Shown here: positions 475 through 34,249 of the stretch, piece by piece
How positions within the stretch are numbered: the stretch's first letter is position 1
Layout: every line of letters begins with the position of its first letter
NCBI GenBank assembly: GCA_030066015.1
Contig: JASJCL010000019.1
Span: 1 to 64,000, forward strand
Length of the DNA: 64,000 bases
From: Desulfosarcinaceae bacterium
Lineage (GTDB): Bacteria > Desulfobacterota > Desulfobacteria > Desulfobacterales > Desulfosarcinaceae
Direction: 5' to 3'
The notes under the pieces: model-generated
Seen by the model: the letters and a program-made list of their open reading frames with translations, nothing else
The model's database searches: none
What the model was told of the DNA's origin: nothing
Position numbers and translations under genes: made by a program

Positions 475-565
475 CCTTCTTGCGGACCGGCTGGCACTCG
501 CCAACAATGCGTTGGCCCGCTATCCGGTCCGTTAAATTTTGATGCGGTTGCTGTCTAGGAGCACA

Positions 566-931
566 ATGGGACGATTACAGCGTAAAAAAGATCCGAAGAA
601 AAAAAAAGCGAAGGCCGATCAAGCGCAGCTCGCCGCCGCTTCGTCAGGCGCTGCAGGCGGCGCCGATGTTGTTCGCAAACCGGCGGCTATCCAGCGGCGG
701 CCCCAACAACCGCCACGCAGCGTCAGCGTCAAGAAGAGCGACAACTTCTTCGAGAAGTCCATGCAGTTCCTGCGTGAAGTCAAGATCGAACTCAAGAAGG
801 TCACCTGGCCATCGCGCAAACAGGCGATGGGATCGACCGTTGTCGTCATCGTGCTCGTGATGATCATCTCCGCATTTCTGGGGCTCGTGGATGTCATCTT
901 GAATGCGTTGATCAGAGTCGTTCTGCAATAA
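566..931 (+). CDS. secE: Preprotein translocase subunit SecE
   Basis: SecE is the small clamp subunit of the SecYEG channel in the inner membrane. The protein has 121 residues: a Lys-rich and Ala-rich N-terminal stretch, the conserved amphipathic segment (QFLREVKIELKKVTWPSRKQ, with the family signature KKVTWPSR) and one C-terminal transmembrane helix. The ATG at 566 has AGGAG at 557-561 and gives a normal SecE length. An in-frame ATG at 539 would add nine residues but lacks a ribosome binding site. nusG follows 19 bases later, the conserved secE-nusG pair. Confidence 0.95.
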   Translation: MGRLQRKKDPKKKKAKADQAQLAAASSGAAGGADVVRKPAAIQRRPQQPPRSVSVKKSDNFFEKSMQFLREVKIELKKVTWPSRKQAMGSTVVVIVLVMIISAFLGLVDVILNALIRVVLQ

Positions 932-4276: not shown

Positions 4277-8377
<4,101 letters not shown>

Positions 8378-8437
8378 GCGGCCATTGACGGGTAGTCATC
8401 CCGTATTTCAACCAACCCTTCACTTTCGGGAGAGGGA

Positions 8438-12829
<4,392 letters not shown>

Positions 12830-13414: not shown

Positions 13415-13885
13415 ATGCCGAGAAGAAGAGAAGTGCCGGAGCGGGTCGTGATACCCGACGCCAAATACGGCAGTAAGTTGGTAGCAAGGTTCATCGCCTC
13501 GATCATGCGAGACGGCAAAAAGAGCGTTGCCGAAGGTCTCCTCTACGGAGCCTTCGACATCATTGAGCAAAAGAGTAAAGAGGATCCGCTGAAGGTCTTC
13601 GAAAAGGCACTTGAAAATGTGAAGCCCGTCATCGAGGTCAAGTCTCGGCGCGTCGGTGGTTCCACCTATCAGGTACCCACCGAGATCCGTCCCGCACGGC
13701 GGATGGCATTGGGAATGCGCTGGGTGATCAGCTATGCACGGGCGCGCTCTGAACGCGGGTTCGCCAACAAACTGGCCGGCGAACTGCTCGACGCCTTCAA
13801 CCATCGCGGTGCATCGGTCAAGAAACGTGAAGATACACACAGAATGGCGGAGGCCAACAAGGCGTTTGCACACTATCGTTGGTAG
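13415..13885 (+). CDS. rpsG: 30S ribosomal protein S7
   Basis: S7 nucleates assembly of the 30S head and contacts the E-site tRNA. The protein is 156 residues, beginning [20 protein letters not shown] and ending [13 protein letters not shown], with the conserved stretch [10 protein letters not shown]. In most relatives fusA follows at once; here only 132 bases separate rpsG from tuf, and they do not encode EF-G. Confidence 0.97.
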
Positions 13886-13921
13886 ATCAGATCCTGGTAC
13901 CACCTGAGTATCTCGTAATCG

Positions 13922-13973
13922 ATAGGTTTTAAATTCACGGCCGCAATTTGGCCCGCTATAATTTAAAACCTAT
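13922..13973 (+). repeat. Long AT-rich inverted repeat between rpsG and tuf
   Basis: ATAGGTTTTAAATT (13922-13935) is matched by its perfect reverse complement at 13960-13973, and GGCC pairs with GGCC inside the loop. A pyrimidine-rich stretch with runs of T follows up to 13990. The AT-rich stem contrasts with the GC-rich neighbours. It could end the rpsLG transcript, act as a leader for tuf, or mark where fusA was lost. None of these is proven. Confidence 0.7.
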
Positions 13974-14017
13974 TTCTTTGTCTAATTTTTAGTCCGTTTG
14001 AGTGGGAGGACGAGACG

Positions 14018-15211
<1,194 letters not shown>

Positions 15212-18586: not shown

Positions 18587-18634
18587 GAAGCGCCAACGCG
18601 TACAACTGAAGAAGCGCCAACGCGTACAACTGAA
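18587..18634 (+). repeat. Perfect 24-bp tandem duplication before rplV
   Basis: Bases 18587-18610 and 18611-18634 are identical 24-mers beginning GAAGCGCCAACGCG and ending ACTGAA. They fill the gap between rpsS and rplV and end 14 bases before the rplV ATG. The ribosome binding site (GGGAAGG) lies outside the repeat. It looks like a recent slippage duplication. Confidence 0.95.
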
Positions 18635-28340: not shown

Positions 28341-29360
28341 ATGTCGATGAACGAATTGAAGTACATGAATTGGCGGGAGATGATCCAACCGGACAAACTT
28401 CAGGCCGATACCTCACCGGTCTACGGCAAGTTTGTCTGTGAGCCCCTGGAGCGAGGGTTCGGCATCACCATGGGAAACTCCCTACGCCGAATCATTCTCT
28501 CCTCTCTTTACGGCGCCGCCATCACGGCGGTTCGCTTCGATACCGTCATGCACGAGTTCAGCGTGGTTCCCGGGGTGCTCGAAGACGTTTCCGAGATCAT
28601 TCTTAACCTCAAAGAGGTCCGTCTCAAAACAGACAGCGCCGACTCCCGCATGCTGCGCCTGGAGAAGGAGGGGGAAGGCCTGGTCACCGCTGGTGATATC
28701 GTCAGCGAGGACGGCCGCGTGGAGATCCTCAACCCGGATCAGCCCATCTGTAATCTCTCCGCGGAGGGTAAACTCCAGATGGAGTTGACGGTCAACGTCG
28801 GCACCGGCTATGCGCTGTCCGAGGCCAACAAGGATGAAGACGCCCCCATCGGCACCATCCCCATCGATGCGGTTTTCTCTCCGATTAAACGCGTCAACTA
28901 TGTAGTTGGCAACGCCCGCGTCGGTCAACGAACCGATTACGACAAACTTACGCTCGAAATCTGGACCGACGGCAGTGTGGCGCCCGATGATGCCCTTGCC
29001 TACGGCGCGAAGATTTTCAAGGAGCAGCTGAACGTTTTTATCAATTTTGACGAAGAGCAGGAACCGGAGACGGACAGCGGCTCCCGCGAAGAGAAGGATT
29101 CGCAGTTCAACGACAACCTCTTTCGCAGTGTCGATGAACTGGAGTTGTCCGTCCGTAGCGCCAACTGCCTCAAGAATGCAGAAATTCATAAGATCTACCA
29201 GTTGGTCCAGAAGACCGAAGGGGAAATGCTCAAAACCAAGAATTTCGGACGCAAATCTCTGAATGAAATCAAGGAAGTGCTCGCCGAGATGGGCCTTACT
29301 CTAGGGATGAAGCTCGAGGGGCTTGTCATCCCGGAGGAAGACGCAGAGGAAGGAGAGTAA
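28341..29360 (+). CDS. rpoA: DNA-directed RNA polymerase subunit alpha
   Basis: Alpha dimerises to start RNA polymerase assembly and its C-terminal domain contacts promoter UP elements and activators. The 339-residue protein has the N-terminal domain motif [18 protein letters not shown], a linker with acidic residues around 240-260, and a C-terminal domain with [20 protein letters not shown] and [16 protein letters not shown] lies 7 bases before the ATG. rplQ follows after 8 bases. Confidence 0.98.
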
Positions 29361-29368
29361 GAGGTCCC

Positions 29369-30157
29369 ATGAGACATCGTAAATCAGGAGTGAAACTCAA
29401 CCGTACCAGCAGCCATCGGGATGCCATGTTCCGCAACATGGTGACCTCTCTCTTCAAGCACGAGCGCATCCGCACCACCGACGCTAAGGCAAAGGAACTG
29501 CGCCGCTGGGCCGATCATCTGGTCACTCTGGCAAAGCGCGGCGATCTGCATGCCCGCCGTCAGGCCCTGGCCATTGTACGGGAAAAAGAGGTCGTCCATA
29601 AGCTCTTCGAAGAGGTACAGGAGAAATTCGGCGGCCGCAAGGGCGGCTACACCCGGGTGATCAAGATCGGTCACCGCCCGGGAGATGCCGCCAAGATCTC
29701 CATGATCGAGCTGATCCTCGAAACGCCTGCCACAAAAAAGAAAAAGGCTGCACCAGCGCCCAAAAAGGCCGCCCCGGCGGTGGCACCGAGTGCCAGCGCG
29801 GCCGCTGACCAAGCAGAGGCCACCGATCAGGCAGAGGCCGCCGATCAGGCGGAAGCCGCTGACCAGGCGGAGGCCGCTGACCAGGCGGAGGCCGCTGACC
29901 AGGCGGAAGCCGCCGATCAGGCGGAAGCCGCTGATCAGGCGGAAGCCGCTGATCAGGCGGAAGCCGCAGCGGAGGGCGACCCCGCTGACACGGCCCCGGT
30001 GGCGGACGCCGCCGCCGAAGCGGATGACGCCGTGGATGCCGAGGTTTCCACTGCGCCGGAGACGTCGGAAGCGGCCGCCCCGGCAGCGGATGCAGCGGAT
30101 GACACCGCCGCCGAAGCAGACGAAGCGGATGCGGAAAGCGAGAAAAAAGCCGAATAG
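29369..30157 (+). CDS. rplQ: 50S ribosomal protein L17 with a long acidic repetitive C-terminal tail
   Basis: L17 lies close to the exit tunnel. Residues 1 to about 117 are an ordinary L17 ([46 protein letters not shown]). The normal length is 115-130, but this protein runs to 262. The extra 145 residues begin with a Lys/Ala/Pro linker and continue as Ala/Asp/Glu/Gln-rich sequence with nine DQAEA units, ending in more acidic Ala-rich sequence. Codon use keeps the same GC-rich third positions, there is no stop, and a terminator follows 42 bases after the TAG, so the tail is in the gene. It is probably disordered; its role is unknown. Confidence 0.97.
29804..29965 (+). repeat. Nine tandem 18-bp units inside rplQ
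   Basis: Nine consecutive 18-base units encode (A/T)DQAEA hexapeptides. Units differ at synonymous positions (GAC/GAT, GAG/GAA, GCT/GCC), and one unit has Thr instead of Ala. Because the length is a multiple of three, gain or loss of units keeps the frame, so copy number is likely variable between strains. Confidence 0.95.
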
Positions 30158-30199
30158 CCTCACATCCTGGCCGCAAACGGCGGCGTTGCGATTCGATGA

Positions 30200-30237
30200 G
30201 AAACGGCCACCTGTCGATACAGGTGGCCGTTTCTATT
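30200..30237 (+). terminator. Intrinsic terminator after rplQ
   Basis: GAAACGGCCACCTGT (30200-30214) and ACAGGTGGCCGTTTC (30219-30233) form a perfect 15-bp stem with loop CGAT, followed by TATTTC. It closes the long ribosomal block and could also stop transcripts coming from the minus-strand gene at 30373. Confidence 0.88.
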
Positions 30238-30372
30238 TCACTGCGAAGCTGTCAAGGGCAGCTTGCCGATGTCCGCCGCCGACCCGCCGATCTCCGGTGT
30301 GATGGCTGCTCGTCGATCCCAAGGCGGCAAGACTGCCGCACAGCCGCCCCCTCCGCGGGGATGCGCGCGGCA

Positions 30373-32932: not shown

Positions 32933-34018
32933 ATGAAACGTCGTCATCTGTCCATCGCTGCGCTGATCTGTGTCATGATGCTGATTGCAACCGCGGGGCC
33001 CTTGCTGGCCAAAAAACCGTCTCTGGATGCCTGGAAGCCGACCTTCGACCCCAAAGGCGCCAAATACAAGCTCATTGTCTCCAACGTCAGTCACCCCGTG
33101 ATCAAAGGGGTCTACACGGGCTTTGCCCTGCGGGACGCCCTCTGGGAGAGCACCAAGGGACAAATTTATCTGGACTATAAACCGTTCTCTATGCTGGGCG
33201 GAGAGGTAGAAGTTCTCAACCAACTGCAGATGGGCGCGATCCAGGGGATGGGGGTCAGCTCCGTGGCCGCCACGAATCTTGGTCCCCGCTTCGGTTTGGT
33301 GAACCTGCCGTTTCTGATCAACTCCTTTGAAAAGCTTGACAAGTTTGTGAACAGCGGCCAGCTCTTTGACCACTTCATGATGGCCATGGACCATCAGGGT
33401 ATCATGGGGCTCGACATCACCGGATATGGCAACTACGGCTGGGCCACCACCGAGCCGGTGCGGTCCCTGGCCGACGCCAGTAAAATTAAGTTCCGTACCG
33501 CCGAAGCGGCCGTCAATCAGCTCTTCTACAAGGCCAACGGCCTGAATCCGGTCGTGATGCCATGGCCCGATGTACCCGTTTCCCTCAAGCAGGGCGTCAT
33601 CACCGGTTTGGATCACACCCCCATGGTGTGCAATATCACCAAGAAGTTTGAGGTGGCCAAATACTACACCTACGTCAATTACGCCCAGGGCCTCTTCATC
33701 TGGATTTTTAATAAAGCCTGGGTCAATAAGCTGCCCGACGACCTTCGCCAGACCTTCATCGACACGGTGCACACGGTTTGCGCCAAGATCCGCCAGGAAA
33801 CCCAGGCCCAGGAGGAGGAGGAGATCGCCAAGGCCAAGGCGGCAGGGATCGAATTCATCGAGTTGCCCGCGGCCGACTTGAAAACGCTGAGTCAGAAGGG
33901 CAACACGGTGCATGCCCAGTATAAAGCGGAGATCAACAAGTTGTACGACGGCGATACCTATCGCCCTGCGGACTACCTCCAAGAGGTGCAGGCGCTGATG
34001 GGCTATGGGGCCGAGTAA
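32933..34018 (+). CDS. dctP: TRAP transporter substrate-binding protein, DctP family
   Basis: Periplasmic protein that captures a carboxylate and delivers it to the DctQM membrane complex. The 361-residue protein has a signal peptide (MKRRHLSIAALICVMMLIA, cleavage near LLA-KKPS). The mature DctP fold includes the ligand-arginine strand KIKFRTAEAAVNQLFYKANG and VPVSLKQGVITGLDHTP in place of the usual ALQQGVVDG segment. AGGAGAGG lies just upstream of the ATG. The substrate cannot be read from sequence; the nearby glutarate genes make a dicarboxylate or an aromatic acid plausible. Confidence 0.9.
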   Translation: MKRRHLSIAALICVMMLIATAGPLLAKKPSLDAWKPTFDPKGAKYKLIVSNVSHPVIKGVYTGFALRDALWESTKGQIYLDYKPFSMLGGEVEVLNQLQMGAIQGMGVSSVAATNLGPRFGLVNLPFLINSFEKLDKFVNSGQLFDHFMMAMDHQGIMGLDITGYGNYGWATTEPVRSLADASKIKFRTAEAAVNQLFYKANGLNPVVMPWPDVPVSLKQGVITGLDHTPMVCNITKKFEVAKYYTYVNYAQGLFIWIFNKAWVNKLPDDLRQTFIDTVHTVCAKIRQETQAQEEEEIAKAKAAGIEFIELPAADLKTLSQKGNTVHAQYKAEINKLYDGDTYRPADYLQEVQALMGYGAE

Positions 34019-34118
34019 CCACTAAATGCTGTCGCCCCGACAGGGGCTCGCGAACCCACTCAGATAGGGAGTCGGTGTCATCACTGGCTCCCTATCTGCA
34101 TATCCACCTGTGATGATG

Positions 34119-34213
34119 GGCGACCTCGCCTGGTCCGTGGCGACCCTCGCCTGGTCCGTGGCGACCCTCGCCTGGTCCTGGGCGACCTCGCCTGATCCAG
34201 GGCGACCCTCGCC
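34119..34213. repeat. 21-bp imperfect tandem repeats between dctP and dctQ
   Basis: Four units of 20-21 bp (34119-34138, 34139-34159, 34160-34180, 34181-34200) plus a partial fifth share GGCGACC(C)TCGCCTGGTCC. There are no spacers, so it is not a CRISPR array. It lies in the 230-base gap between the binding protein and the membrane subunits, where structured RNA often sets protein ratios. Confidence 0.9.
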
Positions 34214-34249
34214 AGCGACGTTCGCCATCTGGAAGTGATCGGAAAAACT

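Follow-up and report, generated by a model that had tools for sequence, protein, structure and literature searches.

The gene rplQ, encoding ribosomal protein bL17, was analysed in an uncultured relative of known sulfate-reducing bacteria. In the window, the whole 64,000-nucleotide stretch of DNA under analysis, rplQ opens at position 29369, shortly after the end (29360) of a reading frame which we take, from its translation, to be rpoA. This order, in which rplQ closes the alpha operon behind rpoA, is the one described in PMC10931766. A single open frame of 262 codons leads from an ATG start through TAG. The bL17 core is matched by Pfam PF01196 at residues 20-116 (E 5e-39; 133.5 bits against a curated cut-off of 27), with profile positions 1-97 of 97 covered. 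The genome assembly (155 contigs, 96.6% complete) holds bL17 as a single copy, and a search of it with the whole L17 protein (E<=0.001, 77 candidates scored) returned L17 itself as the sole match, which rules out a second similar protein. The features of the locus are collected in Table 1.

Table 1. Features of the rplQ locus, in coordinates of the window.
Feature	Coordinates	Strand	Basis and remarks
rpoA (presumed)	28341..29360	+	alpha operon, directly upstream of rplQ; ORF list, named from translation
rplQ, whole open frame	29369-30157	+	262 residues
bL17 core, residues 1-116	29369..29716	+	Pfam PF01196 at residues 20-116; 59 of 60 genomes match, source included
Lys/Ala/Pro linker with KKKK patch, residues 117-145, basic proximal block	29717..29803	+	translation; without secondary structure in the model
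nine 18-bp units, (A/T)DQAEA x 9	29804..29965	+	Tandem Repeats Finder and unit reading
distal tail without repeats, Ala/Asp/Glu/Thr/Pro-rich, residues 200-262 (63 residues)	29966..30154	+	translation
rplQ stop codon	30155-30157	+	translation
perfect inverted repeat, two 16-nt arms, 4 nt spacing	30199..30234	+	inverted-repeat search; 41 bp past the rplQ stop

The inverted repeat downstream of rplQ probably marks the end of the operon transcript and may act as a terminator; a scan with a T-run rule scored no terminator after rplQ. Elsewhere in the window (13415-15211), tuf directly follows rpsG across a gap of 132 bp, both genes being named from their reading frames. In the str operon of E. coli the EF-G gene sits between rpsG and tuf. 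The gap of 132 bp leaves no space for an EF-G gene.

Beyond core residue 116 the protein continues for 146 residues, and the tail exceeds the core in length. A normal L17 core followed by a long tail with nine DQAEA units had been described in the first-pass annotation, and this description holds; its figure of 145 residues for the tail does not, the count being 146 past residue 116 or 142 past residue 120. The net charge changes from +15 in the core to -32 over the whole tail, within which residues 117-137 carry +5 and residues 138-262 carry -37. The whole protein has a pI of 4.9. Nine amino acids are missing from the tail (C, F, H, I, M, N, R, W and Y). When the bases of the tail DNA were shuffled, 1,920 of 20,000 shuffles were stop-free, so the open frame alone is unremarkable; none of these stop-free shuffles was free of Arg, and the composition of the tail is therefore not a matter of chance.

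Tandem Repeats Finder reports the array with a period of 18, 9.3 copies and a score of 229 (29801-29967), as one of four rows, representing three arrays, within the 64 kb. The nine units are in-frame, eight of them reading ADQAEA and one TDQAEA. At the DNA level they comprise six distinct versions, and five of the six variable positions are third codon positions (P 0.018 if all codon positions were equally hit). The identity of the hexapeptide in eight of nine units, together with this third-codon bias, fits either selection on the peptide or a recent duplication. Long reading frames in other frames lie over the array (29384-30163 and 29661-30176 on the minus strand, 29790-30302 on the plus strand); they were considered as overlapping genes and rejected, and are expected because the repeat period is divisible by three. 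Two further repeats were seen in the window. A 21-bp unit is repeated 4.7 times in tandem in an intergenic stretch (34118-34213), between a reading frame for a TRAP-transporter-like binding protein, named by eye, that ends at 34018 and the next frame, which starts at 34235. A 24-bp unit occurs in two perfect copies (18587-18634) between the rpsS and rplV reading frames.

The tail could in principle be an artefact of an assembly error, a frameshift or a missed stop, with the real protein ending near residue 120. The assembly is fragmented, and short reads may miscount an array of 162 bp. However, the frame is unbroken to the stop, the nine units differ in six versions, and a tail is present in all 29 family genomes read. 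A frameshift or a stop after residue 120, named beforehand as the finding that would undo the observation, was sought and not found. With the frame intact and the relatives tailed, we rejected a stop or frameshift artefact, and the artefact reading as a whole is highly improbable.

We used AlphaFold to model the protein on 23 aligned sequences. Three helices and two strands are predicted inside residues 14-116, and no helix or strand follows. Past residue 130 all blocks of 10 residues have a mean pLDDT of 39-51. With a mean pLDDT of 55.9 and a pTM of 0.24 the whole model is weak, so the absence of predicted structure from the tail supports disorder only softly and does not prove it.

Long tails on bL17 are common among the relatives. 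Of 60 genomes drawn from the family and order, 59, the source included, contain a match to L17 (genome G021 gave none). All 59 C-termini were read; 29 belong to the same family, again including the source, and 30 to the order's other families. Open-frame lengths given by the genome search include sequence upstream of the start and overstate the tails. Rows L031 and L061 were dropped as duplicates, and L059 and L060, with an incomplete core and a complete tail, were kept. In the comparison of rplQ tails that the first-pass annotation had proposed, a length of 40 residues was reached by all 29 family tails, each of which in fact has at least 60 (median 89), and by 24 of the 30 other-family tails (at least 50 in 21, fewer than 20 in five). 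The five short tails measure 10-16 residues; similarly, each of the five loci whose titles read Desulfobulbaceae, Desulfoprunum or Desulfobulbus has 12-15 residues. Since tails of 10-16 residues suffice in some relatives, the tail is dispensable over evolution. Separately searched loci were not pooled with the 60-genome set, as some look like the same genomes and two (L065, L072) run off their contigs. Among these, the best-listed named records (L062-L074) have a core identity of 78-83% and are metagenome-assembled genomes titled Desulfobacterales, Desulfobacteraceae or Deltaproteobacteria. In one genome (G023, row L060, contig G023:C113) the L17 core matches as two separate pieces with a readable tail, perhaps owing to a sequencing error there.

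Within the order, tails range from 10 to 189 residues and from -32 to +46 in net charge. The source tail is the most acidic of the 59, the next having a net charge of -16, and the fourth longest. It also differs from the others in its repeat: none of the 58 further genomes read in the family and order, all of them from other genera, has the DQAEA array. As only the source has DQAEA among the 59 and tails are common in the order, the repeat is thus a private expansion within a shared extension. Outside the family and order, a tail of -28 occurs in Desulfobacterota, and in Actinomycetota tails more acidic than that of the source are found, down to -41.

The sequences of the tails have diverged widely. 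Over the 253 pairs formed by 23 aligned proteins out of the 59, cores are on average 80% identical and tails 21%; shuffling the tail residues within rows brings the latter figure to 12%. The tail consensus contains little besides a Lys-rich start. The residues C, F, H, W, Y, I, M, N, R and L together make up 4.9% of the family tails, compared to 44% of the cores. Judging from these sequences, the presence and composition of the tails are retained and their sequence hardly at all. Such a pattern bears on the main rival to the role that we propose below, namely that low-complexity growth is tolerated at an exposed C-terminus, where near-neutral repeat expansion, biased towards soluble and disorder-promoting residues, would lengthen the protein to no dedicated purpose. 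The low tail identity, the spread of length and charge inside one order, and a repeat private to one of 59 genomes all speak for neutral growth. The retention of at least 60 residues in every family member speaks against it, as does the concentration of differences between repeat units at third codon positions.

Acidity itself is not what the tails have in common. Within the family a net acidic tail is the rule (28 of 29), the exception being a tail of 159 residues (genome G005, row L009) with a net charge of +19 and three occurrences of KPKKA. Among the 30 tails from other families of the order, 16 are basic, two neutral and 12 acidic, the most basic being a tail of 189 residues with a net charge of +46 (G045, row L018). 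With 16 of 30 other-family tails net basic, acidity is ruled out as a shared property of the clade, and an "acidic shield" therefore cannot be the common function. The acidic tail reported in the first-pass annotation is real, predicted to be unstructured and carried by a protein described at the tunnel exit, but its acidity is not shared across the order.

What recurs is the order of the charges. We scored tails of at least 40 residues for whether the mean position of acidic residues is distal to that of basic residues, using a one-sided shuffling test. To the family and order we added genomes from elsewhere. Outside the order, 21 of 286 matched Desulfobacterota genomes were read (a few of the 286 lie inside the order), all 21 chosen for open frames of at least 180, and 19 had tails of at least 40 residues. 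Actinomycetota, Myxococcota and Pseudomonadota were also sampled, these phylum names being deduced from records titled Acidimicrobiales, Myxococcales and Lysobacter, respectively. Of 59 matched Actinomycetota genomes, 28 were read (eight taken by E-value, the other 20 because their open frames measured 180 or more); in 16 of these the tail reached 40 residues, and long tails are hence present in at least 16 of the 59 matched. The corresponding counts were two of 30 in Myxococcota (the best 30 of 46 matched by E-value) and one of 30 in Pseudomonadota (the best 30 of 49). That long tails are few in these last two phyla favours separate origins for the source tail and the mycobacterial type of extension.

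The test set comprised 88 tails from two phyla, which were 29 from the family, 24 from other families of the order (six of 30 tails being too short), 19 from other Desulfobacterota and 16 from Actinomycetota, where 24 of the 28 proteins were entered. Acidic residues lie distal to the Lys/Arg-rich part in 85 of the 88 tails, and the shuffling test gives p<0.05 in 53, while 35 fall short; the genomes are related, so that the tests are not independent. By group, the acidic part is distal in 29 of 29 family tails (p<0.05 in 21), 22 of 24 from other families of the order (14), 18 of 19 from other Desulfobacterota, picked for long open frames (six), and 16 of 16 from Actinomycetota, nearly all picked for long frames (12). 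For the source tail p is 0.005. Two Lys-rich tails of 65 residues from Myxococcota show no polarity (p 0.50 and 0.92), and the one long tail from Pseudomonadota does (p 0.042). Polarity is therefore not universal across bL17 tails, and its lack in some of them is a further point for neutral growth. The charge polarity of bL17 tails is apparently new: acidity is not the common trait, and the basic-then-acidic gradient is.

As a control we examined the tails of uS2 from the same family and order (30 tails; one of 31 matched genomes was without a locus). Although 26 of the 30 lean the same way, p<0.05 is reached in one of 30, and the first 30 residues are net positive in none of 30. The control is an imperfect match, since the uS2 tails are shorter (median 71.5 residues) and hold a conserved motif, and two of them (L181, L186) enter masked stretches and are unreliable. 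Because significance is rare in this control, polarity is marked in the L17 tails and is not general to tails of these genomes. Its recurrence in a second phylum and its rarity in uS2 are arguments against purely neutral growth.

The uS2 of the source genome (L107, contig G000:C153, match 7926-8573) has 312 residues and itself ends in an acidic tail, 85 residues past the chosen core end. Like the bL17 tail it is an acidic extension; unlike it, it carries a motif conserved in the clade and lacks a clear basic-then-acidic polarity. Across the clade, uS2 tails share the motif LKPGERKVISDGxxGPxVEIIRK, followed by a variable and mostly acidic end. Three ribosomal proteins were looked up outside the window: uS2 is tailed, and bS16 and bL21 are without a long tail, the 297-residue open frame of bL21 lying mostly upstream of its start. 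Ribosomal proteins within the window were read by eye. A SecE-like frame in the window (539-931, also named by eye) has a Lys/Ala-rich N-terminal extension ahead of the usual SecE segment.

Extensions of bL17 have been described before. Solved bL17 chains of 187, 180 and 174 residues exist, which we presume to be also actinobacterial. Another solved chain, of 199 residues, is chain O of PDB 5o60. A cryo-EM study of 2012 described a C-terminal extension of 72 residues on the L17 of M. smegmatis (199 residues), placed L17, L22 and L29 around the tunnel exit, and suggested that the extra domains coordinate how chaperones, SRP or the translocon reach it, or touch the nascent chain (PMC3286452). 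The mycobacterial extension resembles that of the source in being an Ala/Glu-rich low-complexity extension at the C-terminus of the same core protein. It differs in belonging to another phylum, in being about half as long and in lacking a regular hexapeptide array. A phmmer alignment of the source with M. smegmatis bL17 reaches into the tails (query 6-196), where the two match in composition only. Their likeness is compositional and probably convergent. The other Desulfobacterota tails occupy the same position on bL17 and mostly have a Lys-rich start and an acidic end.

More generally, extensions of ribosomal proteins were reported in 2022 to be common throughout bacteria, with functions largely elusive (PMC9534751, published in Nature). 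Those of M. pneumoniae are mostly predicted to be disordered, and disrupting them affects fitness or survival (PMC9534751). The source bL17, with 262 residues against 127 in E. coli (length from PMC3286452), exceeds the threshold of more than 20 residues by which that study defines an extension, and its tail is likewise terminal and predicted to be disordered. In the available portion of PMC9534751, L17 occurs 0 times in the main text and charge polarity goes without mention. Among the titles listed in searches of open-licence PMC literature, none dealt with repeats in bL17 tails or with bL17 tails of Desulfobacterota, which does not prove that nothing has been published. The source tail is an extreme example of a known feature, the C-terminal extension of bL17.

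We hypothesize, with confidence just short of even, that the tail is a charge-segregated disordered extension on the exit side of the ribosome, whose basic part rests on rRNA and whose acidic part forms an outward bristle that tunes access, lengthened here by the 18-bp repeat. bL17 would be made at full length and its core built into the 50S subunit as usual, while the C-terminal 146 residues would remain disordered near the tunnel exit, facing the solvent. The Lys-rich segment adjoining the core may lie along the rRNA surface. Repelled by rRNA, the long acidic segment would then point outward as a flexible bristle, which could tune the approach of factors or of neighbouring ribosomes to the exit through charge and bulk and not through a motif. 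In the source species, the acidic block would have grown by in-frame duplication of the 18-bp unit, possibly through slippage. Against this proposal stands the wide variation of tail sequence and net charge, which is also expected of a weakly constrained end, and the tails of +19 and +46 sit on cores similar to the others. Near-neutral growth, which we rate only slightly below the charge-segregated bristle, is a real possibility if on balance a doubtful one.

Recruitment of factors or shielding of nascent chains by the tail, as put forward in the first-pass annotation, is not a new idea, having been proposed in 2012 for the mycobacterial L17, L22 and L29 extensions (PMC3286452). It is plausible, and it has been published for a different phylum; for the present lineage, our analysis would put a basic start and an acidic end in place of acidity as such. 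A specific version of it, in which the repeated ADQAEA makes the tail a multivalent docking site for one particular factor acting at the exit, for instance trigger factor or SRP, appears very unlikely. A trigger factor gene is present in the source genome (its translation read by eye), a part in factor access has been suggested for the mycobacterial extension (PMC3286452), and imaging and simulation published in 2025 indicate transient contacts of trigger factor near bL17 in E. coli (PMC12752688). However, the simulated contact is with core helix 54-61 and involves no tail (PMC12752688), the consensus of 23 tails offers little to dock on beyond its Lys-rich start, and none of the other genomes among the 59 has DQAEA.

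The contrast between a core of +15 and a distal tail of -37 also suggests an aid to assembly or solubility in cis, in which the acidic block would fold onto the basic L17 core, keep the free protein soluble and be displaced on assembly. The net acidity of 28 of 29 family tails agrees with such a cis-acting block, but a net basic charge is found in 16 of 30 tails from other families and in one from the family itself, and the core-adjacent basic segment would be expected to compete for the acidic block. We consider this aid in cis improbable.

A broader form of the bristle hypothesis, which we regard as unlikely though less so than docking or the aid in cis, is that bL17 in at least two phyla, probably by separate origins, carries a disordered two-block polyampholyte acting as an electrostatic gate over the exit, in which only charge pattern and length would be selected and repeats would tune the length. 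Tails found throughout the family and across most of the order, with polarised charge recurring in a second phylum, are worthier of pursuit than the repeat itself. If the polarity is selected, it would be a clear case of function residing in a charge pattern, without conservation of sequence, at the bacterial ribosome exit, and the role of ribosomal protein extensions would become testable through truncation and charge-scrambling. If it is neutral, the tails show that disordered mass is tolerated on a ribosomal protein made in every cell.
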